Assembly: GCA_014730055.1 (NCBI GenBank)
Contig: WJIV01000170.1
Coordinates: 1-25,334, forward strand
Direction of reading: 5' to 3'
Source: Candidatus Bathyarchaeota archaeon
GTDB lineage: Archaea > Thermoproteota > Bathyarchaeia > TCS64
Length of the DNA: 25,334 bases
The notes under the pieces were generated by a model. The model had not been told where the DNA came from and searched no databases. It saw nothing but the letters and a program-made list of their open reading frames with translations. Position 1 is the stretch's first letter. The number at the start of each line of letters is the position of its first letter. Shown here piece by piece: positions 1,157-18,637 of the stretch. The position numbers and the translations under genes are program-made.

Positions 1157-1505
1157 ACATATTCATATGAGTACACAGAAATAACTTTTAGCCCTACTTG
1201 GATGCTTCAAAGAATCTAGGGCAGAACGTTAAAATCTAGTAATAATTCCCGTGCTTGAATTTCAAGTTATATCAACTCGATTCTTACTCTTTTCTTTTGT
1301 TTGAGTTACACTGAATATGTTGATTATCTAACGTAGGCCGATTCTTGTGGACATCCAGTCTACAGTAGAGGGCATCGAATCCGGAGATGAGCAAACTCTA
1401 GATTACGTCCTCCGTACGTCGTCGCTGGCGTGTGTTGTCCTCAGACAAGAAACAATTTTTAACATCAATTTTACAATTATTAATTTGCTAAAGGAGATAA
1501 CTACC
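1157..1505. other. Intergenic stretch between vapB and the PD40 gene
   Basis: The first part (about 1157-1330) is AT-rich and should hold the divergent vapB promoter. Bases about 1335-1450 are visibly more GC-rich and read on the plus strand as a plausible peptide (VEGIESGDEQTLDYVLRT) in frame with the next gene. There is no ribosome-binding site before its GTG at 1347, whereas a strong one precedes the ATG at 1506. I treat it as non-coding or as a remnant. No RNA gene is recognised here. Confidence 0.35.
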
Positions 1506-2468
1506 ATGCGACTAATTAAACTCATTATCTTTCTGATTGTTACTGTCATCCTCATCTCAGTTGGCACACATTTGTTCAATAACAAGCAGGAGTTCACACC
1601 TCCAAGTAGACACTCTAAGATACCCGCAGACTCGGTGAAGATACTCCCTGGAAATGATCTCAATCCTCCACTATCAGAGTCCCCGGAATACTACGATCCA
1701 GTGCCAGTAACTGGACTAGTCAATACTGCCGGAGGTGAGGATTCAGCCTTCGTACTTCCTGACGGCGAGACATTGTACTTCTTCTTCACTCCAGACGTAA
1801 GAATCCCAGTCGAGGAGCAGATTAAAGATAAGGTCACGGGTATCTATCGTTCCAAAAAGAACAGTGACTCTTGGGAAGAACCTGAGAGGATAATTCTCCA
1901 GGATCCAGGTAAACTAGCAATGGATGGCTGCCAGTACATCAATGGAGATGAGATGTACTTCTGCTCCGCCAGGGAAGGTTACACGGGGCTACACTGGTTC
2001 AAAGCAGAGAAAATCGGAGATACCTGGACTAACTGGTTAAACGTCGACGAGGAGCTGAAGACGGAGGAACACGAAGTAGGAGAACTCTATATCTCCGCTG
2101 ATGGTAAAAGGCTATACTTTCATAGTACAAGAGAGGGAGGAGAAGGAATGTACGACATCTGGTTCTCAGATAAAACTGGTGATGAGTGGGGAGAACCTGT
2201 TAACTTGGAGGTCGTGAACACCGAGGGAAATGAGGGTTGGCCTTGCTTATCCATAGATGAGAATGAGTTATGGTTCTCAAAGGACTACGGGATCTGGCGG
2301 ACGAAGAACGTTGAAGGTGAGTGGACTGAGCCAGAGCGGATGTTCTTCCCCCTGGCAGGTGAACCATCACTAGATGTGCATGGTAATGTTTACTTTACTC
2401 ATCATTTCTTCAAGAACGATACTATGCTTGAGGCAGACATATATGTCGCATATAGGAAGACATCTTAA
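1506..2468 (+). CDS. Membrane-anchored PD40/TolB-like beta-propeller protein
   Basis: The protein has 320 residues. I chose the ATG at 1506 because AAAGGAG lies 8-10 bases upstream and because the protein then starts with a basic MRLIKL followed by a hydrophobic segment of about 18 residues (IIFLIVTVILISVG), a signal anchor or uncleaved signal peptide. The rest is exposed outside the membrane. It consists of WD40-like PD40 blades recognisable by repeated 'S.DG..LYF.S' motifs: LPDGETLYFF, INGDEMYFCSAR, SADGKRLYFHSTR followed by YDIWFSD, and SIDENELWFSKD. Such propellers usually bind peptides, sugars or partner proteins and are not enzymes. It stands alone between two toxin-antitoxin loci, so the partner is unknown. 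Confidence 0.75.
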   Translation: MRLIKLIIFLIVTVILISVGTHLFNNKQEFTPPSRHSKIPADSVKILPGNDLNPPLSESPEYYDPVPVTGLVNTAGGEDSAFVLPDGETLYFFFTPDVRIPVEEQIKDKVTGIYRSKKNSDSWEEPERIILQDPGKLAMDGCQYINGDEMYFCSAREGYTGLHWFKAEKIGDTWTNWLNVDEELKTEEHEVGELYISADGKRLYFHSTREGGEGMYDIWFSDKTGDEWGEPVNLEVVNTEGNEGWPCLSIDENELWFSKDYGIWRTKNVEGEWTEPERMFFPLAGEPSLDVHGNVYFTHHFFKNDTMLEADIYVAYRKTS

Positions 2469-2489: not shown

Positions 2490-2906
2490 TTAGATTAGTT
2501 CAATAATCTGTGAAGATCTGGCTTTCCGGTAAAACTTTCTATCGGATGTGATGACTTTTATTCCCAGCAGTTCTGCTAGTGATAGGTAACAGGAGTCATA
2601 GAGTGTTATATCATACGCATAGGCGTTTTGAAGAGATCGCTGGATCAGCTCCTTACCGGGATTGATAAGGTCTATCTGAAGATCAATTATGCTGTTGATT
2701 GCCTGAGCTACTTTTACTTCATTAAAATCAGGTTTGTATCGGAGAGCGTTAGCCATCTCATATATTATCAGGTCGGGGGATGAAAGAACCGTTCTACCTC
2801 TTATATGCTCATCTCTTAGCCTAAGGGAATCCTCTGTTCCCTCTTCCTCGGATATCCATTTAATGGCTGTGGAGGCGTCTATTACAGCTTCCGTCGGTCT
2901 CGCCAT
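2490..2906 (-). CDS. vapC: PIN-domain VapC toxin
   Basis: A 138-residue PIN-domain ribonuclease (start ATG at 2906, reading MARPTEAVIDASTAIKW). The four acidic residues of the metal site are present: D10 in VIDAS, E50 in IIYEMANAL, D104 in LYDSCYLSLAE and D122 in TSDRKF. An upstream in-frame ATG at 2933 would add nine residues, but it lies deeper inside the antitoxin gene and the PIN strand begins only after the second Met. The gene overlaps its antitoxin by 25 bases, so the two are translationally linked. VapC proteins typically cleave tRNA or rRNA when released from VapB. This copy appears intact. Confidence 0.87.
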   Translation of the reverse strand: MARPTEAVIDASTAIKWISEEEGTEDSLRLRDEHIRGRTVLSSPDLIIYEMANALRYKPDFNEVKVAQAINSIIDLQIDLINPGKELIQRSLQNAYAYDITLYDSCYLSLAELLGIKVITSDRKFYRKARSSQIIELI

Positions 2907-3142
2907 TTTCTGATCTCCTCGACACCCGACCATGATACCTCTGATTTTTCCCTCAAGTTATCCATTACCTCCGCAGCTCTTCGCATAAGCTCTTCATCCC
3001 TTATACGGCTCTGCCTTTTTGATGCAACCCATAACCTGAAAGCCTCACTCGCGGCTTCTCCTATCTTCATATCATGCCTTATAGCCTCAGCTTTGAGGTT
3101 TCTGTACGCGTTCTCGTCGATATCTTTTATACTAACACTCAC
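2882..3142 (-). CDS. Ribbon-helix-helix antitoxin (VapB-like)
   Basis: An 86-residue partner of the PIN toxin that follows it. The N-terminus MSVSIKDIDENAYRNLKAEA looks like a ribbon-helix-helix strand plus helix, followed by a second helix (IGEAASEAFRLWV). The charged middle (RQSRIRDEELMRRAAEVMDN) and a Trp-containing C-terminal tail (VSWSGVEEIRKWRDRR) resemble a toxin-neutralising segment. The toxin gene starts inside its 3' end. The stretch just upstream (about 3150-3180) is AT-rich and fits a promoter that the complex could repress. It belongs to a different antitoxin subfamily from the one at 917-1156. Confidence 0.78.
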   Translation of the reverse strand: MSVSIKDIDENAYRNLKAEAIRHDMKIGEAASEAFRLWVASKRQSRIRDEELMRRAAEVMDNLREKSEVSWSGVEEIRKWRDRRKL

Positions 3143-3808: not shown

Positions 3809-4151
3809 ACCTTCCTCAGAACTTCATAAGCAAGGCAAATTAAATAGGTTCATTGTCTCACTGGTCTAATCGTGTCAAGACTTTGTTCTCCATCTCCAGT
3901 ATACTGAATTAGAATATCGAGTAGCTTGTAAGGGAATGTCTATCGGAGCTATCTCTAATAGGCTGAACTTTGCTGCCTGGACATCCTTTTGGCTGTTAAT
4001 GAATTCTCTTAGGGCTATATTTTTGTGTTCTTTCAGAAAGTTAATATTACAATCGAAAAAACCTACCCTAGACACTGACTTAATAGTAACCCAATTTCTA
4101 AAGACAGAGTCTCGGAAAACCTTAACTACATTACCTTATAATTATATAACT
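3809..4151. other. Intergenic stretch between the MsrQ-like gene and the third vapBC
   Basis: The stretch is AT-rich and has no convincing gene. A 66-codon minus-strand frame from a GTG at 4075 to 3875 has a protein-like middle (HKNIALREFINSQKDVQAA) but no ribosome-binding site and no recognisable family. The plus-strand frame that runs from 3936 into the antitoxin is just an upstream extension of it. A TATA-like run near 4135-4149 lies close before the antitoxin start. Confidence 0.4.
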
Positions 4152-4379
4152 ATGAGTAAATACTCTACGATATCTGTCCCAGAGGAAGTAAAACAAAAAC
4201 TCGAAGAAAATAAGGGTGACAGAGAATGGGGGGAGTACCTCCTAGAACTCTACCGGAAGGCAGAAGAAGAACGAAGAAATAGAGCAATAAAAAAAATCTC
4301 TGAAGTACTAAACGAAGAAGATTTCGAGAACATGAGAAAATCATCATCCAAGTTCAGGGAGGAATTCAAAATCCAATGA
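4152..4379 (+). CDS. vapB: VapB-type antitoxin
   Basis: A 75-residue antitoxin read from the ATG at 4152 (MSKYSTISVPEEVKQKLEENK). The first part is the short strand plus helix of the ribbon-helix-helix type found in archaeal VapB proteins. It is followed by a long, highly charged helix (KAEEERRNRAIKKISEVL) and a tail, NEEDFENMRKSSSKFREEF, of the form that occupies the toxin groove. The open frame extends further upstream, but the upstream part has a composition unlike protein, and this ATG sits just behind a TATA-like sequence. The stop codon overlaps the toxin start (ATGA at 4376-4379), so the pair is co-translated. Confidence 0.8.
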   Translation: MSKYSTISVPEEVKQKLEENKGDREWGEYLLELYRKAEEERRNRAIKKISEVLNEEDFENMRKSSSKFREEFKIQ

Positions 4380-4732
4380 AGCTTTACGATACAAACATAA
4401 TAATAGATCAACTTCAAAACAGACAACCCTTCCCGGGAAAAATATCCGTCCTCACACTGATAGAACTGTTGAGAGGCATAACCGAAGAAAAGAGACGCAA
4501 ACTTAAATCGAGCTTAGAAGAACTTTACCACGTTGAAACAATATCCAACGAGATAATATTAGAGTACTGCAGCATCTATACAATTCTAAAAAAAGAAGGA
4601 TTACTTATCCCTGATGCAGATCTTCTTATAGCCGCCACCGCCCTAGCTAACCAGTGTGAACTTATAACAAATGATAGTCACTTCAAGTGCTTAGAGAAAA
4701 AAGGGCTAAAACTAGGTAGTAATGATACATGA
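4376..4732 (+). CDS. vapC: PIN-domain VapC toxin
   Basis: A 118-residue compact PIN-domain ribonuclease. Metal-binding acids are visible: D5 in MKLYDTNIIID, E30 in LTLIELLRG, D80/D82 in IPDADLLIAATAL, and D100 in ITNDSHF. The gene begins within the stop codon of its antitoxin. It is the third VapBC pair within 4.2 kb and the only one on the plus strand. The three toxins differ clearly in sequence from each other, so this is not a recent duplication. It appears intact. Confidence 0.87.
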   Translation: MKLYDTNIIIDQLQNRQPFPGKISVLTLIELLRGITEEKRRKLKSSLEELYHVETISNEIILEYCSIYTILKKEGLLIPDADLLIAATALANQCELITNDSHFKCLEKKGLKLGSNDT

Positions 4733-12587: not shown

Positions 12588-13457
12588 TTAAGATCTTTCG
12601 ATGGTCTCGTAGAACTCTATCGCATTAAAGTCTTCAAAGTACCTGAGGATGTCTAGGGCTACGCCACGTTTTGCAATCTGGATGTTCTCACTGAAGAAGA
12701 TGTCATCCGGGATGCTGATGCTAAGCTTATCATCTGATAGCTCGATCTCGAATTTCTCGGTCTCTATGCCGACAAACCTTCTGCCAATAAGTGCTCTCCA
12801 CTTTTCCTCGTCCTCAGTCATATGATCTGTTACTTTAACATCGTATATTATAGTACGACCTGCTAGTGGGTGATTATAGTCTACTTGTACCCTACCAGCT
12901 CCGACGCTTCTAATTATTGCAGGACGACCGTCAATCTCTAGTTCAGCACCTACGACGGGGTTTATTCCCTTGCTCCTAAGTATCCTGTAAGGTATCGTCT
13001 CAACGTTGCTTGGGTCCCTCTCACCAAAGGCTTCCTCTGGCGGGATCTCTATCTCAGTTTCCTCATCAAAGGGTGTGCCAGGTAGCCTGCTATCTAGTCC
13101 CCTGAGAACAAATCCCTCACCAACTATTACTAGTCTGGGCCCATAGCTCCTATTTTCGTTATAGATTCCTTCTTCCTCAGCTAGTTCCTGGTCTGTTGTC
13201 TCGAAGATTTCACCTGTCTCCTCGACCCTGCCAGTCATCTCAATTTTAATGAAGTCCCCTTTGTTTACAGCGTCTTCGAAGTACTCTTCTTCCTCGGGTT
13301 CAGGTTCTGGTTCATCATCTAATTCTTCGGGTTCTTCCTCAATCTCTTCCTCCTCCACGAGTTCCTCTTCCTCTGAGTCCTCTTCGGGAGTTTCCTCGGG
13401 TTCTTCTACTTCCTCTTCTTCCTCTTCGAGATTTTCTATCTTTTCTTCTTCACTCAT
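12588..13457 (-). CDS. FKBP-type peptidyl-prolyl isomerase with acidic N-terminal extension
   Basis: From ATG 13457 the protein has 289 residues; a GTG at 13469 would add four. The first 60 or so residues are almost only Glu, Asp and Pro. The FKBP domain then begins at VNKGDFIKIEMTGRV, has VIVGEGFVLRGLDSRLPGTP, and contains the chaperone-like insert-in-flap typical of SlyD and archaeal FKBPs (EAFGERDPSNVETIP ... VQVDYNHPLAGRTIIYDVKV). A further C-terminal domain of about 85 residues follows, as in the long archaeal FKBPs. It accelerates proline isomerisation and acts as a folding helper in the cytoplasm. The strongly acidic leader is unusual and its role is unknown. It is the first gene of an operon with the reductase. 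Confidence 0.9.
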   Translation of the reverse strand: MSEEEKIENLEEEEEEVEEPEETPEEDSEEEELVEEEEIEEEPEELDDEPEPEPEEEEYFEDAVNKGDFIKIEMTGRVEETGEIFETTDQELAEEEGIYNENRSYGPRLVIVGEGFVLRGLDSRLPGTPFDEETEIEIPPEEAFGERDPSNVETIPYRILRSKGINPVVGAELEIDGRPAIIRSVGAGRVQVDYNHPLAGRTIIYDVKVTDHMTEDEEKWRALIGRRFVGIETEKFEIELSDDKLSISIPDDIFFSENIQIAKRGVALDILRYFEDFNAIEFYETIERS

Positions 13458-13614
13458 AGTAAACTTCACTGTTGAACGTTATTTCTCCAAGTAATATGGA
13501 ATCTACGAGTGTAACGAGTCAATCGATTTAAAGTCTTTCTATAAATAGAAGATAATCCCTGAGATTTTCCTCAACCATTACATCCTTATTAACAGTAATG
13601 CACTACAAATAACA

Positions 13615-15213
13615 ATGGTCAATCGTCTCGCTAGATACGCTCAGATGGCATCCATCCTATCCAAGTACGGGTTCGGAATCTTTCTCGATGAACTCTTCCC
13701 AGAGGAATCCAGACCCGACTTTCTACAGAGAGGGGAAGCATACGAGCACCTTAGTGTATACACGAGGATAAGAATGGCCATAGAGGAACTAGGTCCAACC
13801 TACATTAAACTAGGGCAGATAATGAGCACCAGAAGGGATATTCTTCCTCAGCCAATGATCAAGGAACTCCAGAAACTAACTGACAGGGTTAAACCTGTAC
13901 CCTATGAGAAGATTAGACCAGTCATCGAGGAGACCTGTGGTCCGTTAAGGGAGATATGTGAGTACGTGGAGGAGGACCCATACGCCTCAGCGAGCCTCAG
14001 TCAGGTGCACAGAGCCGTATTACTGGATGGGACTGAAGTTGTATTCAAGGTCCAAAGACCAGAAATAGAGGAGCTAATTGAAGTTGATCTTACCATCTTG
14101 GAATCTGTAGCAAGAAGGATAGAGACTGTCTTTCCATACTTAACCCCCTATAATCCGGTCGAGATAATAAAGGAGTTCAGCATTCAGATAAGAAAGGAAC
14201 TAGACTTCGTCAGAGATGGGAAAAATGCAGAGACTTTAGCTAAGAACCTTGAGGAATTCGAGAGGATAAGGCTACCGAAAATTTTCTGGGAGAGAACAGG
14301 GACCCGCCTGCTTGTTATGGAGTATATTGAAGGTACCCGAATTGATAACATAACAGAACTTGAACCAAAATTCGATCTGGCTGAACTCGCTGAATTAGGC
14401 TTCCAAGCTTATCTAAAGCAGATATTTCAGGACGGATTCTTTCACGGGGATCCCCACGCAGGCAACTTAATTGTCACCGGTGAGGGAAAGCTTGTTTTTC
14501 TCGACTTCGGGATGGTTGGAATACTGAGGCCAGAGAGACGTCTAACCTTCACAAGGATTCTATATGGTATAGTTGAAAATGACGTAGATCTAGTTGTCAG
14601 AAGCTTCAGAGACCTTGGAGTTTCATTTGATGACACGGATGTAGATGAATTTAAGGACGAATTATATACGATATTAAGAGAGAGCAGAAGATATGATCTA
14701 AGAGATTATAGCTTCATTGATAGTTTAGATGATATTACCTATACTTTCTATAGGCATAAGATCAAACTACCTGGAACATTGATGTTAATGCTCAAGGTTC
14801 TAACAATGATGGGGGATCTCGGATTATTACTCGATCCTGAGTTCAATTTTATAGAAAGGGTAAGGCCTTACCTTAACAAGATATTAATTCAAAACTACCT
14901 GAGCCCAGAACAAGTTCAAAGAGTTAGAACAGCTCTAACAAGAGATATAATGGATCTTCCCCGAATTATTGGAGATTTTTTAGATGACCTCTCCAAAGGT
15001 AGAGCTCGTCATAGAGTAGATATACCTGATCTCGAGAAGCTCGAAGGATCAATAGAAGGTGCATCAAAGAGAATATTTGTTGGGCTTTTATCGAGCGCTC
15101 TAATACTTGGAGTGTCACTAATTATTACTACACTGGGAAGCAACTGGCCTGACTGGTACCTATATTCACTAACAATTCTAGGATTACTGCTTGTAATTTT
15201 TCTTGTTCGATAA
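13615..15213 (+). CDS. ABC1/UbiB/ADCK family atypical kinase
   Basis: A 532-residue protein-kinase-like protein. The family-specific KxGQ motif is YIKLGQIMSTRRDILP (K65-Q68). The Ala-rich loop that replaces the glycine-rich loop reads YASASLSQVHRA (about 123-133). The ATP Lys is K145 in VVFKVQRP. The family ExD region is KELDFVRDGKNAE. The catalytic loop is FHGDPHAGN (276-284), and the metal-binding DFG is at 297-299. Two hydrophobic helices at the C-terminus (about 487-532) anchor it in the membrane, as in UbiB. Family members support quinone or lipid metabolism and have ATPase activity; the archaeal substrate is unknown. Confidence 0.93.
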   Translation: MVNRLARYAQMASILSKYGFGIFLDELFPEESRPDFLQRGEAYEHLSVYTRIRMAIEELGPTYIKLGQIMSTRRDILPQPMIKELQKLTDRVKPVPYEKIRPVIEETCGPLREICEYVEEDPYASASLSQVHRAVLLDGTEVVFKVQRPEIEELIEVDLTILESVARRIETVFPYLTPYNPVEIIKEFSIQIRKELDFVRDGKNAETLAKNLEEFERIRLPKIFWERTGTRLLVMEYIEGTRIDNITELEPKFDLAELAELGFQAYLKQIFQDGFFHGDPHAGNLIVTGEGKLVFLDFGMVGILRPERRLTFTRILYGIVENDVDLVVRSFRDLGVSFDDTDVDEFKDELYTILRESRRYDLRDYSFIDSLDDITYTFYRHKIKLPGTLMLMLKVLTMMGDLGLLLDPEFNFIERVRPYLNKILIQNYLSPEQVQRVRTALTRDIMDLPRIIGDFLDDLSKGRARHRVDIPDLEKLEGSIEGASKRIFVGLLSSALILGVSLIITTLGSNWPDWYLYSLTILGLLLVIFLVR

Positions 15214-15301
15214 CGTAAATCTAACGTTAATTAAATAATTATTCTATAAACTTAGAAAATTAATCTTCAAAGGGATTAAATATGATAATTTTTGATTTTT
15301 G

Positions 15302-15589
15302 ATGATTAAAATGACACTAGAAATACCGAAAAAATTTGAAAAATACGTCGTTTTAGGAGAAAAAGAGGAAAAAATCAAAAAATTTGAGTGTCCAATCTGT
15401 GACTTTGAGACAAAGCAAGGTCCAGGAGCCTTGAGAATGCATCTTGTGCTAAATAGCGATCCTAGTATCGAGTCACGTTACGACGAGGAACATAAGGAAG
15501 CTTCGAGAAAAGAACCTATATATAAGCTAGAAGCAGTCAGAGAACTTTCAGTATTCCCACATGAATCGGTTAACCCCGAAGAACAATAG
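15302..15589 (+). CDS. Small single zinc-finger protein of unknown function
   Basis: A protein of about 95 residues read from ATG 15302; a second ATG at 15311 is possible. A TATA-like TTAAATA at 15276-15282 puts the transcript start at this ATG, so the mRNA is probably leaderless. The middle contains a C2H2-like finger: FECPICDFETKQGPGALRMHL, with a CxxC pair and a His 13-14 residues later and another His further on (EEH). It is flanked by a basic N-terminal segment (EKEEKIKKF) and a charged tail. Single zinc fingers like this are scattered in archaea and are presumed DNA- or RNA-binding. It lies 100 bases before the structured RNA candidate, which has its own promoter. Confidence 0.65.
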   Translation: MIKMTLEIPKKFEKYVVLGEKEEKIKKFECPICDFETKQGPGALRMHLVLNSDPSIESRYDEEHKEASRKEPIYKLEAVRELSVFPHESVNPEEQ

Positions 15590-15662
15590 GAAAAAGAGGA
15601 ACACTTTCCAACAATTTTCTAATAAAAGATTATTTTACTATAATTAATTTATCTTTGAAAGG

Positions 15663-15670
15663 TTTAATAA
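15663..15670 (+). promoter_or_regulatory. TATA box for the structured RNA at 15691
   Basis: TTTAATAA, preceded by the purine-rich GAAAGG (a BRE-like element), is centred about 25 bases before the first base of the 10-bp terminal helix. That spacing is standard for archaeal transcription starts. Confidence 0.6.
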
Positions 15671-15690
15671 TGGTGCTGAGAAGAGTAATA

Positions 15691-15824
15691 GTGCCCGAAT
15701 GGGAGCGACCTAAGGTCTAAGAAGCGGATGACCTTGAGACGCTGAGCACTGAGATGGGCTTCCAAGTGCATCTGGGCTTTGGCGCAGATGATTACTGCAT
15801 CTCAACGCAAGAACATTCGGGCAC
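15691..15824 (+). ncRNA. Structured non-coding RNA candidate, family unknown
   Basis: The 134-base segment begins GTGCCCGAAT and ends ATTCGGGCAC, which pair as a perfect 10-bp closing helix (15691-15700 with 15815-15824). Inside are two hairpin arms. Arm one is AGCG/CGCT (15704-15707 with 15740-15743), then a 4x4 internal loop, then AAGGTC/GACCTT (15712-15717 with 15730-15735). Arm two is TGAGATG/CATCTCA (15750-15756 with 15798-15804) capped by CATCTG/CAGATG (15769-15774 with 15785-15790). A TATA box sits 25 bases upstream, and a T-rich stretch follows. There is no open frame of note. It lacks the conserved internal sequences of 5S rRNA, the SRP RNA apical loop and the RNase P core. It has scattered GATGA and CTGA words but no proper C/D order and no terminal ACA, so neither guide class fits. 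Confidence 0.65.
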
Positions 15825-15840
15825 CTTTATTTTTAAAAAA
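15825..15840 (+). terminator. T-rich end after the structured RNA
   Basis: CTTTATTTTTAAAAAA directly follows the closing helix. The T-run fits archaeal termination just past the 3' end of the RNA. Confidence 0.45.
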
Positions 15841-16027
15841 TCATCTTAAGATAATAAAATGAGATCGAGTTTCCTTGCATGAATCAAAGACCCAGATTAG
15901 ATATTTGTTTCAAAAAAGGGAATTGAGTGTTCTGAGCCATAGTAGGCCACCATAATATTAATTTCCTTATAAATAGCATTCTTCAACCTTCTTCATTTAA
16001 TGTAGATGAATTCAAGATCTGATTTTG
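15841..16027. other. Non-coding stretch between the RNA candidate and the beta-sandwich gene
   Basis: I see no gene here. The stretch is AT-rich and separates a plus-strand RNA from the 3' end of a minus-strand operon. Confidence 0.5.
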
Positions 16028-16666
16028 CTAATATTTTGTGATAAGAACTTTGTCAATATCCCGATCTATTTGCCGGATCCCATCATAGAGGTAGGCGTAG
16101 ACAGTGTATAATCCCTCAGACTCTGGGGTGAACTCCATCTTGCTCTTTAGTAGGCTTTCTTCATTAATATCGATACCAGTTTCTCCTAATTGTGTGAACA
16201 CCCCATTGGGCAGGTTAACCCAATAATCTAATCTAACCTTTGAGTCTGGTTTTAGACCCCTGATGGTTGTTTCAACTTCCACTCTACGTCCTACCTTTTG
16301 CTTTGCATCACCTTGGATTAGTAGGGTGTCTAATTGAGCGACCTCATCGCCAACCTTGAGCCGGATAGCAGGCGACTGCCAAGAAAATCTCTCATCCCCT
16401 AAATAGCCAAAGATCTTAATGTGTACTTTAGTTGTGCTGAAAGCAGATATATCGTAGGGTATTACAGCTGTCTCTCCGGGATGTATGTTGCTGAGCCATT
16501 TTAACGAATCTTGTACCTCAAGTAAGCTCTGATCAAGAGAAAATAAGCCAATCTCTAAGGTCTCAATCTCTTCTTCTCCAATATTCTTAATCTTTAACGA
16601 TACCTGGCTTTTTCCTCTAATGACTTCTCTTGGTTCTAACTTAACTATAACCGGTAACCGCTTCAT
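16028..16666 (-). CDS. Protein of unknown function, predicted beta-sandwich
   Basis: A 212-residue protein without a signal peptide or membrane segment that I cannot assign to a named family. The alternation of hydrophobic and polar residues suggests two immunoglobulin- or CARDB-like domains. The first runs from VIVKLEPREVIRGKSQVSLKI to about residue 105 and includes the typical NIGEEEIETLEIGLF strand pair. The second starts at DTLLIQGDAKQKVGRRVEV and ends with EFTPESEGLYTVYAYLYD, a phrase common in such sandwich domains. Its ATG overlaps the stop codon of the glutaredoxin-like gene (ATGA at 16663-16666), so both are made together. A role as a binding or scaffold partner of that redox protein is possible. 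Confidence 0.6.
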   Translation of the reverse strand: MKRLPVIVKLEPREVIRGKSQVSLKIKNIGEEEIETLEIGLFSLDQSLLEVQDSLKWLSNIHPGETAVIPYDISAFSTTKVHIKIFGYLGDERFSWQSPAIRLKVGDEVAQLDTLLIQGDAKQKVGRRVEVETTIRGLKPDSKVRLDYWVNLPNGVFTQLGETGIDINEESLLKSKMEFTPESEGLYTVYAYLYDGIRQIDRDIDKVLITKY

Positions 16667-16974
16667 GCTTTTCCCTTCCTTCTCAAGTTGAGTTTGTCTG
16701 ATATTTTCTCGGGGTTGAAGCCTATGATTTTTTCATTGTTAACAACAATTATTGGAAAGGCTATGCTTTTCCCGCCCTCGGGGATATCCATCCCAAATAA
16801 ACCTGCGGCCTCAGACCGGTCCTCAGGGTTTGCTTGATCGATATCAAGGTATCTAAACTCAATGTCCTTTTCTTTGAGATAATTCTTTGCCTTATCACAT
16901 GCATGGCAGTAGCTCAGAGAGTATAAAGCTACATCCTTATCATCTATTTCACCATTGACCTCTGCCCAACTCAT
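16663..16974 (-). CDS. Glutaredoxin-like protein
   Basis: A 103-residue thioredoxin-fold protein of the glutaredoxin/NrdH type. The active site is SYCHACDKAK (C23 and C26, a CHAC motif) after the first strand DVALYSL. The cis-proline comes at AFPIIVV (P74), and the glutathione-fold ending is KIIGFNPEKISDKL. It probably reduces disulfides in the cytoplasm using a small thiol or a thioredoxin reductase. A TATA-like TTTATAAAATA at about 17000-17010 lies 26-35 bases upstream on the minus strand, so the mRNA is likely leaderless. It is the first gene of a two-gene operon with the beta-sandwich protein. Confidence 0.85.
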   Translation of the reverse strand: MSWAEVNGEIDDKDVALYSLSYCHACDKAKNYLKEKDIEFRYLDIDQANPEDRSEAAGLFGMDIPEGGKSIAFPIIVVNNEKIIGFNPEKISDKLNLRRKGKA

Positions 16975-17175
16975 TTTTCAGTGATATTAAATGAATCATA
17001 TTTTATAAACAAAAGGAGTATTCATATTCTATACCCTAATTTCCTGAATCAGAGCTATTCGTAATTAAAATGTACCTCATTATCAAGTTTTTATTTCTCT
17101 TTAATTTGTTTATTTATTGCATTTAAATAATAAGTGATTATAAACTATGATGCATATGTATAGTAATGAACTAAA

Positions 17176-18273
17176 TTGAAGCTCATGACTGTTCTTTTAC
17201 CAGTCTACGGGGGATCTAAACATCTCGATGGGCTTCTTAAAGCACTAGAGCAAGACCCCTATCCAGATAAAGAGGTAATAGTAACTGTTGACGCACCAAC
17301 GGAAGAGACCCGTTCTCTTGAGTCAGAATACCCTTGGGTGAAGTTTAAGTGGAGCAAAAAGAGGCGGGGGAAAGTTAATGCCCTCAACGAGGAAACAGCC
17401 AACTCAAGTGGAGAGTTTTTACTATTCATTGACTGTGATATAAAGATAGTAAAGGAAAGGTTCTTGGGGAAAGTCGCGGCGGCTCTTCGCGAGAAGGAGC
17501 TGGTAGATATAAAAAAACAGATTATCCGTGACTCTTTAATGGCTAAGCTTGTAAGCTATGAGTACCTCAGTGGGAGTTTAACTAGCTATATATTCGATAA
17601 TCTAAACAGTAGCTGCCCTCAACTTAACGGTGCATGCTTTGCTATCCGTAGGGAGACATTCGAAAGACTAGGAGGATTCAATAAAGTCCTGTATGAGGAC
17701 CTGGATTTAGCCTTCAGGGCCTTCCAGAGCGATGTGAGCTACAGTTTCGCAGATGATATTGTTGTTATGAACGCCGTGGATCCAGAACTAGAGAACTGGT
17801 TAAAACAGAGAAAGAGATGGGGCATAGGGTTGGTAAAGTGGATTAAGGGGAATCTCATAGGGTTATTAAGGGGAATATCTAGAGATCCTTTTGTCTTCCT
17901 TGCCGCATTTATGGTACTTTCCCCGAGTTCTCTATTAATTGCTGCGAGCTTCCTTTTTTCCGCAGATTCAATTATCAAAGTCTCATCTCTGGGGGTACTC
18001 TTATCAAGTCGTGGATTATACCAAATTCCCCCTTCTTCTCTGGGTCAAATATCAACATCCATCTCAAAAAGCATAGCAATGCTGATCGCTGGTTATCTAT
18101 CCAGTAGCATAGTCTTTTTCTTAGCTGCCAGGCGCCTAAACTATGAATTTAATCTCCTAGAATTCGCTTTATATTTTTTCTTATATAATCCGGTCTGGCT
18201 CATTATAATTCTAATTAGCTTGGTGAGACTGATATTGAAAAAGGAGCCTTCTGAGTTGGATTGGAAAGTATGA
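17176..18273 (+). CDS. Family 2 glycosyltransferase, membrane-associated
   Basis: A 365-residue processive-type GT2 enzyme. The GT-A fold starts TVLLPVYGGSKHLDGLL. The metal-binding DxD is D86-C-D88 in LLFIDCDIK. The acceptor and catalytic acid motif is VLYEDLDLAFRA (about E174-D177), and the family signature is QRKRW at 211-215. About three transmembrane helices follow (roughly 236-260, 299-322 and 325-352). This resembles enzymes that build exopolysaccharide or transfer sugars at the membrane. The frame opens with a TTG at 17176; an ATG at 17185 is equally plausible. A TATA-like TTATAAAC at 17138-17145 suits either start. No partner biosynthesis genes are nearby. Confidence 0.87.
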   Translation: MKLMTVLLPVYGGSKHLDGLLKALEQDPYPDKEVIVTVDAPTEETRSLESEYPWVKFKWSKKRRGKVNALNEETANSSGEFLLFIDCDIKIVKERFLGKVAAALREKELVDIKKQIIRDSLMAKLVSYEYLSGSLTSYIFDNLNSSCPQLNGACFAIRRETFERLGGFNKVLYEDLDLAFRAFQSDVSYSFADDIVVMNAVDPELENWLKQRKRWGIGLVKWIKGNLIGLLRGISRDPFVFLAAFMVLSPSSLLIAASFLFSADSIIKVSSLGVLLSSRGLYQIPPSSLGQISTSISKSIAMLIAGYLSSSIVFFLAARRLNYEFNLLEFALYFFLYNPVWLIIILISLVRLILKKEPSELDWKV

Positions 18274-18360
18274 GGTTCTTTTATCGTTTTTTACATATTT
18301 ATGAAAAATGCCAGATGTATTACTCTGCTATACGCACAATAGTACTCAAATAATTGAATA

Positions 18361-18434
18361 TGGGCCCGGAGGGATTTGAACCCACCACCACCTGGTTATG
18401 AGCCAGGTGCTCTGCCAAACTGAGCTACGGGCCC
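18361..18434 (-). tRNA. tRNA with CAT anticodon (elongator Met or Ile2)
   Basis: On the minus strand the gene begins GGGCCCGTAGCTCAG, has anticodon loop CTCATAA on a CCTGG/CCAGG stem, and ends CGGGCCCA without an encoded CCA. The anticodon is CAT. The anticodon stem lacks the three consecutive G-C pairs next to the loop that mark initiator tRNA, so it is an elongator Met or the agmatidine-modified tRNA-Ile2. The acceptor GGGCCCG/CGGGCCC resembles archaeal tRNA-Ile, which favours Ile2. The T stem has one T-T mismatch. A TATA-like TAAATATAAA at 18461-18470 lies about 30 bases upstream. Confidence 0.9.
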
Positions 18435-18460
18435 CTTTCCTCCTCTGTAAACCTGATTCC

Positions 18461-18500
18461 TAAATATAAAAACTCCCCCTTTCTAAAAACAATTATAAAC
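18461..18500. promoter_or_regulatory. Back-to-back tRNA promoters
   Basis: Two TATA boxes face away from each other: TAAATATAAA (18461-18470, serving the minus-strand tRNA) and TTATAAA (18493-18499, serving tRNA-Glu). Each is about 28-35 bases before its tRNA. Confidence 0.6.
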
Positions 18501-18526
18501 AGGCTCATGGCTTATCATGGATACAA

Positions 18527-18602
18527 GCTCCTGTGGTGTAGCTCGGCCAAGCATTCCGGCCTTTCGAGCCGGAGAACCCGGGTTCGAATCCCGGCGGGAG
18601 CA
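18527..18602 (+). tRNA. tRNA-Glu (TTC)
   Basis: The acceptor stem GCTCCTG/CGGGAGC has one G-T pair. The anticodon stem CCGGC/GCCGG encloses the loop CTTTCGA, giving anticodon TTC. The T arm is CCGGGTTCGAATCCCGG and the discriminator base is A, with no encoded CCA. The TGGTGTAGC D-arm start is typical of archaeal tRNA-Glu. The DinB-like gene starts only 35 bases downstream. Confidence 0.93.
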
Positions 18603-18637
18603 CTATTCTTTTCTACTCCCTATATTAGAGCATAATT

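Follow-up and report, generated by a model that had tools for sequence, protein, structure and literature searches.

A probable gene for a pseudoknotted RNA, found in one to five copies per genome in part of one order of Bathyarchaeia, that fits none of the RNA families tested

In the stretch of 25,334 nucleotides analysed here (the window; contig WJIV01000170.1 of a Candidatus Bathyarchaeota archaeon), a block of about 134 bases between protein genes has ends that can pair with each other. Is this block the gene of a folded RNA, does the RNA belong to a known family, and what might it do? The original prediction, made from the sequence letters, had described a closing helix, two enclosed arms, a promoter and a terminator, and had placed the RNA in no known family. 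That observation on positions 15691-15824 was confirmed, and its reading as a structured RNA gene without a known family was supported; very probably, these 134 or so bases are a true gene on the plus strand, with a folded non-coding RNA as its product. Missing from the prediction were a pseudoknot between the two arms and a family of paralogues. The parts of the locus, in window coordinates, are the following.

15299-15589, plus strand: ORF of 96 amino acids with a CxxC...H pattern, the upstream neighbour of the RNA
15663..15670, plus strand: TATA-like box, TTTAATAA, starting 28 bases before 15691
15691..15824, plus strand: whole RNA, about 134 nt; fold z -4.1; 112 and 111 bits with the covariance models R1 and R2, scores given by construction because the window sequence is part of both models
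15691..15701, plus strand: closing helix P1, 5' strand, GTGCCCGAATG, pairing with 15814-15824 (11 bp in the window)
15705..15742, plus strand: arm P2, with GCG/CGC, an A-rich internal loop, a second helix and a 12-nt loop, as seen in the fold
15721..15725, plus strand: pseudoknot strand 1, GAAGC in the P2 loop, pairing with 15758-15762
15746..15808, plus strand: arm P3, with a 3-bp P3a (2 bp in the window), a 6-bp P3b, then a bulge and P4
15758..15762, plus strand: pseudoknot strand 2, GCUUC in the P3 bulge, pairing with 15721-15725
15769..15790, plus strand: P4 hairpin, capped by c(UUUG)g
15809..15813, plus strand: junction J3/1, AAGAA in the window and RAGAA in the family
15814..15824, plus strand: closing helix P1, 3' strand, CATTCGGGCAC, pairing with 15691-15701
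15826..15834, plus strand: T-rich tract, a likely terminator, separated by one C from the last paired base
16028-16974, minus strand: two genes downstream of the RNA, one of them glutaredoxin-like

The ends of the block had been predicted to pair perfectly over 10 bases, and we found 11 consecutive pairs. Both arms were present in the RNAfold structure, whose energy was -55.4 kcal/mol, compared with -38.3 ± 4.2 kcal/mol for 200 dinucleotide shuffles, none of which folded as well. The G+C content of the block is 54%, that of its flanks 24% and 29%. Folding alone leaves the strand unsettled, because a good fold was obtained for the reverse strand too (-52.9 kcal/mol, z -5.4). The TATA-like stretch and the T-rich tract of the window copy are both in plus orientation, and the structure cells of the homologues described below held 46 G.U against 18 A.C combinations, an excess that, in an alignment fitted to the plus-strand model, would favour the plus strand.

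Homologues were searched in 256 genomes of the class. With the RNA as query, BLASTN matched 141 of them at E up to 1, nearly all matches being short. Six BLASTN loci were aligned; L006 and L025, matching nearly the whole RNA, and L005, matching all but the 3' strand of P1, were kept, and L007, L008 and L024 were dropped as unconvincing before model R1 was built from the window and the three kept loci. R1 found 27 copies in 14 genomes, with E from 7.5e-31 to 5.9e-7, and R2, built from 20 copies, returned exactly these 27 places and 14 genomes; by construction, 3 of the 27 homologues are in R1 and 19 in R2. Counts out of 28 refer to the window copy plus these 27 homologues. There are one to five copies per genome, with five in G251 and four in G256.

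All 14 RNA-bearing genomes fall within one order, that of Bathyarchaeota RBG_13_60_20 (G001), in which the other 18 of 32 genomes had no confident copy. Lack of conservation in relatives had been named beforehand as an argument against an RNA gene; conservation was seen in 14 of these 32 genomes. In a phylum-wide sample the RNA was found in 1 of 398 genomes, G001 itself. Distant members may be missed in these large searches, because those of more than 40 genomes used stricter filters and scored few candidates per genome (13 in the R2 search of the class, 8 in the phylum sample).

The same genome, G001, holds the relative of the UbiB-like protein encoded upstream in the window (locus L001, 59% identity). 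Window positions 12588-18603 and positions 9031-19969 of L001 share FKBP-like and UbiB-like genes, the FKBP of L001 being identified by eye, and a divergent tRNA-Met/tRNA-Glu pair. An R1 scan of L001 gave no copy of the RNA; the copy of this genome lies elsewhere.

Several weaker candidates were rejected. L086 in G238 (23.3 bits, E 0.19) was not counted, as by eye its 5' strand lies in the end of an apparent ORF, and L087 (E 0.39) looks by eye like coding sequence. After the weak R2 match in L086 (about 1501-1617, minus strand) stands a T-rich end, GGGCACCTTCATTTTA, almost identical to that of the family. Run without filters on 18 further AlaX-like loci, R2 gave 16 matches, the best at E 0.69, which we read as noise. 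One 16-base motif from the 5' part had 51 exact matches in viral contigs; on the contigs with this motif the model gave three weak matches (16.4-17.4 bits, E 0.57-0.87) and no convincing copy. A blastn search of plasmids with the window copy gave no match.

Comparison of the copies showed the shape of the RNA, a three-way junction of the closing helix and two arms. P1 was complete (10 of 10 pairs) in 26 of 28 copies and one pair short in the other two; in L056 the second pair is A-U instead of G-C. An extra arm in 8 of 28 copies shifts the 3' strand of P1 downstream and brings the total length to 168-208 nt, the P1 partner in these copies being the best match within about 100-260 nt. Across the family, the RNA is about 130-208 nt long.

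The 20 short copies were aligned with R2, and this alignment (A5) is thus fitted to the structure. In it, 92.2% of cells were paired and 30 of 45 pairs showed changes on both sides, compared with 19.2 in shuffled alignments. Cells changed on both sides numbered 134; shuffles gave 41.9 such cells, and sliding the partner gave no more than 24. The weakest measure was the number of further pair types, 60 against 53.6, a value reached by 4 of 500 shuffles. Compensatory changes, which the original prediction had proposed to look for in the closing helix and the arms, were thus found: both sides changed at 6 of 10 pairs in P1, 5 of 6 in the upper helix of P2, 3 of 3 in P3a and 4 of 6 in P3b. Pairing was low in the upper helix of P2 (77.6% of cells) and in P4a, only 77-78% of A5 cells for the two.

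The P4 tetraloop is UUUG, UUAG or UUGG in all 28 copies, that is, c(UUNG)g, and in 26 of them a G.U forms the third pair beneath the loop, the exceptions being the window (G.G) and L035 (G-C). In J3/1 of the short copies, the letters after the first are A (20/20), G (19/20), A (20/20) and A (18/20). The letters of the junctions J1/2, J2/3 and J3/1, the bulge and the tetraloop are similar among copies; unpaired columns overall vary more than paired ones (0.94 vs 0.76 bits).

The pseudoknot joins the loop of the first arm (P2) with the bulge of the second (P3). Its strands change together: GAAGC/GCUUC in the window is GCAGC/GCUGC in L045, GAGGC/GCCUC in L041 and GAGAC/GUCUC in L052. Since the structure shaped A5, the most telling check is alignment A6, made by MAFFT alone from 15 of the 20 copies (L046, L047, L050, L058 and L061 were omitted as near others). 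RNAalifold on A6 recovered P1, the pseudoknot and the tip of P4; P2 and P3 were not recovered from these 15 copies, because they cross the pseudoknot and are thereby absent from a nested fold that contains it. Taken alone on A6, the pseudoknot was paired in 98.6% of cells, with 7 both-side cells against 2.0 in shuffles and 0-1 with the partner slid.

A TATA-like box had been predicted 25 bases upstream and is present, but its start was measured at 28 bases before 15691; similarly, the predicted T-run exists as a T-rich tract, but one C stands between it and the last paired base, which it had been said to follow directly. Positions -26 to -24 are A or T in all 26 copies without N upstream, the window included, and ATTTT occurs within about 12 bases after P1 in 17 of 20 short copies. 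In the family as well, the A/T tract upstream and the T-rich end downstream keep almost constant distances from the RNA. A scan for bacterial-type terminators found none at the T-rich tract of the window.

Further upstream, a second box lies at a nearly fixed distance from the TATA, with T at -53, A at -38 and A at -33, and in several copies it reads GTTG-N11-CAAC. A four-part rule of these box letters plus the A/T tract held in 20 of 28 copies and, over the 27 loci, at 211 of 79549 positions (0.27%), the copies' own sites included; because it was made from the same copies, it measures consistency and is no independent test. The window copy fails the rule, with T instead of A at -38. By eye, the upstream box is absent from seven nearby tRNA genes, one of which has only 59 bases upstream. 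Searched in eight genomes, the pattern GTTG-N-CAAC-N-TATA gave 21 matches and its reversed control 26, hence no enrichment; three of the 21 precede copies of the RNA, and one more, in L062, precedes an apparent protein gene.

Reading frames starting at the first base of the RNA stayed open in no more than 11 of 28 copies; as the copies differ in length, this test is rough. A mechanically called ORF of 70-111 amino acids overlaps the RNA in 18 of 28 loci, on either strand.

The RNA sits, as originally described, between the CxxC...H ORF and the minus-strand genes. The former had been called a zinc-finger gene; the pattern is there and four relatives are in the protein database, but the name holds by eye only, since the 96-residue product has no Pfam match at E 0.001. 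Elsewhere the copies sit beside varied neighbours, none common to all. The nearest non-overlapping downstream ORF, called mechanically at 70 or more amino acids so that some are doubtful, is convergent in 17 of 28 copies, the window included, and co-directional in 11. The most widely shared downstream family is an AlaX-like gene, found in same-strand orientation at 8 of 28 loci. With longer stretches, covering 20 of the 27 copies, 9 of 14 genomes had such a gene downstream of a copy, again same-strand and 0.15-2.3 kb away (loci L166, L167, L165, L168, L169, L159, L155, L157 and, in G255, L048), with different genes between; in G252 and G253 it starts about 150 nt downstream of the RNA. Of two AlaX-like proteins scanned with Pfam tRNA_SAD, one scored 26 bits (cut-off 24) and the other 21.8 bits, below the cut-off.

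Certain sites are kept between genomes: an SPFH-gene site in three and the AlaX-like-gene site in nine. In G245, G247 and G248 the SPFH site and the AlaX site are occupied by one copy each, and by eye G251, G254 and G256 each appear to have three kinds of copy. Since like sets of copies and sites recur across genomes, the duplications probably predate these species, and since such sets persist across species, the paralogues probably do related but separate jobs. The window copy, which fails the promoter rule and carries G.G where the family conserves G.U, may for these reasons be diverged.

Against known families, Rfam 15 at gathering thresholds reported nothing in the window but two tRNAs (18361 and 18527; ARAGORN/RF00005), and no family reached its threshold in the RNA block. 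The strong Rfam match that was to end any claim of novelty was looked for and was not found, and Rfam agrees with the earlier failure to match 5S rRNA, SRP RNA, RNase P RNA, tRNA or a guide RNA. Over the RNA in 20 of the 27 homologous loci, no family appeared at E up to 1. A lax search of 301 bases around the block gave three sub-threshold matches: snR77 at 16.6 of 50 bits, GlsR7 at 14.5 of 75 bits, and psRNA6 (E 0.076), which lies outside the RNA on the other strand. An abstract-level literature search, which covered few subscription papers, found no description of such an RNA.

What kind of RNA is this? The explanation that we consider best, with moderate confidence, is a stand-alone gene for a pseudoknotted non-coding RNA that acts in trans as a structural RNA and is probably the core of an RNP. 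Each copy would be transcribed alone, and the product would serve in trans as a folded scaffold. By tying the loop of arm 1 to the bulge of arm 2, the pseudoknot would give it a compact core. Most likely, it would be bound by at least one protein, the contacts being the conserved purines of the junctions and the c(UUNG)g hairpin, G.U pair included.

A guide or antisense RNA, which would pair with a target RNA through an unpaired segment, could account for the several paralogues per genome seen in G251 and G256 and for the greater variability of unpaired columns overall. Inspection by eye for C/D or H/ACA box motifs, a kink-turn and a copy-specific guide segment showed the same mix of conserved junctions and loops with more variable unpaired columns. 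However, the junctions, bulge and tetraloop are conserved across copies, making this reading unlikely; part of the P2 loop is taken up by the pseudoknot, and no snoRNA or guide family passed the Rfam threshold in the block or appeared over the RNA in the 20 loci.

The orientation of the neighbours bears on another possibility, a cis-acting leader such as a riboswitch or attenuator, whose fold would sense a ligand and whose T-rich end would stop transcription before the next gene. Among riboswitches, those built from a junction and a pseudoknot have a compact core locked by loop pairing and conserved unpaired purines, much as this RNA does, and the 11 co-directional ORFs and the close AlaX-like genes of G252 and G253 would suit such a leader. 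But the downstream ORF is convergent in the other 17 copies, no downstream gene family is common to all copies, and this RNA differs from riboswitches in having its own TATA-like tract and end. With no riboswitch family among the Rfam matches of the RNA loci either, we regard a cis-acting leader as quite unlikely.

The AlaX-like neighbour also suggests a mimic of the tRNA-Ala acceptor that would bind or regulate the AlaX-like (tRNA_SAD) editing protein; the G.U pair at the tip of P4 is reminiscent of the G3.U70 identity pair of tRNA-Ala. We judge this very unlikely. P4 is a closed hairpin without a CCA end, the 24 loci scanned yielded no tRNA-Ala gene, and the other copies have no AlaX-like gene in their 1.5-kb flanks or in the longer stretches available for 20 of 27. 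Strong AlaX-like matches occur in 27 of the 32 genomes, namely in 12 of the 14 RNA-bearing ones and in 15 of the 18 others, so the linkage reflects synteny kept in one part of the order and not co-occurrence. As a lead to function, the AlaX-like neighbour is weak.

The least probable explanation, and a highly improbable one, is a diverged member of the 5S rRNA, RNase P RNA, SRP RNA or Y RNA family, since the lax Rfam matches over or beside the RNA fall far below gathering scores, 5S rRNA and RNase P RNA lie elsewhere, and Ro60 is scarce in the order. 5S rRNA resembles our RNA in its closing helix with two arms and its similar length, but it has no arm-to-arm pseudoknot, RF00001 did not match the block or the 20 loci scanned, and a separate 5S gene passed the cut-off in 28 of 32 genomes, including 12 of the 14 with the RNA. 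Likewise, archaeal RNase P RNA (RF00373) did not match at the RNA, and its separate gene passed the cut-off in 20 of 32 genomes and 9 of the 14. No SRP family was among the Rfam matches at the window block or the 20 homologous loci scanned, and neither ARAGORN nor RF00005 found a tRNA cloverleaf in the block. Y RNAs are small, occur in several copies and have a terminal closing helix, as here. Their closing helix is bulged and bound by Ro60; P1 of the window copy has no bulge. No Y RNA family was among the Rfam matches, and the Y RNA partner Ro60 (TROVE) was found in 1 of 32 genomes. That single Ro60/TROVE-like gene is in G247 (L170, L171), an RNA-bearing genome.

The RNA is therefore new at the level of the RNA family, as none of the families tested fits. 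Its nearest parallels in kind are OLE, ROOL and GOLLD, conserved RNAs that are apparently transcribed alone and whose function was unknown at discovery; they are large and bacterial, whereas ours is archaeal and about 130-208 nt long, and none of these families was among its Rfam matches. To our knowledge, few archaeal RNAs have been described that are structured, present across a lineage and of unknown function. Starting from the stand-alone structural RNA preferred above, the family may well represent, though we hold this tentatively, a new archaeal RNA class, the pseudoknotted core of an undiscovered RNP whose paralogues are long-lived and would mostly share a dedicated promoter; by the latter we mean the palindrome-like upstream box plus TATA, unlike the tRNA genes looked at. 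The family offers a fold with a pseudoknot supported by covariation, as many as five copies in one genome and hints of a promoter type peculiar to it, and the covariance model, the predicted core and the conserved G.U hairpin give a concrete handle for finding a new RNP in Bathyarchaeia.

Several other features were seen beside the copies and in the window. In G250, a small ORF next to the RNA (L039, 1665-2135, minus strand) contains two similar Cys/Trp-rich stretches, CRCVILCRWICF and CIIVCRWFCYY. Two adjacent genes lie beside the RNA in L042 (1709-2712) and in L050 (1735-2741), and the second gene of the pair, as scanned in L042, encodes a cucumopine-synthase C-terminal domain (PF18631), here in an archaeon. 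In the window itself, three adjacent small gene pairs, at 543-1156, 2490-3142 and 3936-4732, resemble toxin-antitoxin pairs of the VapBC type by eye.
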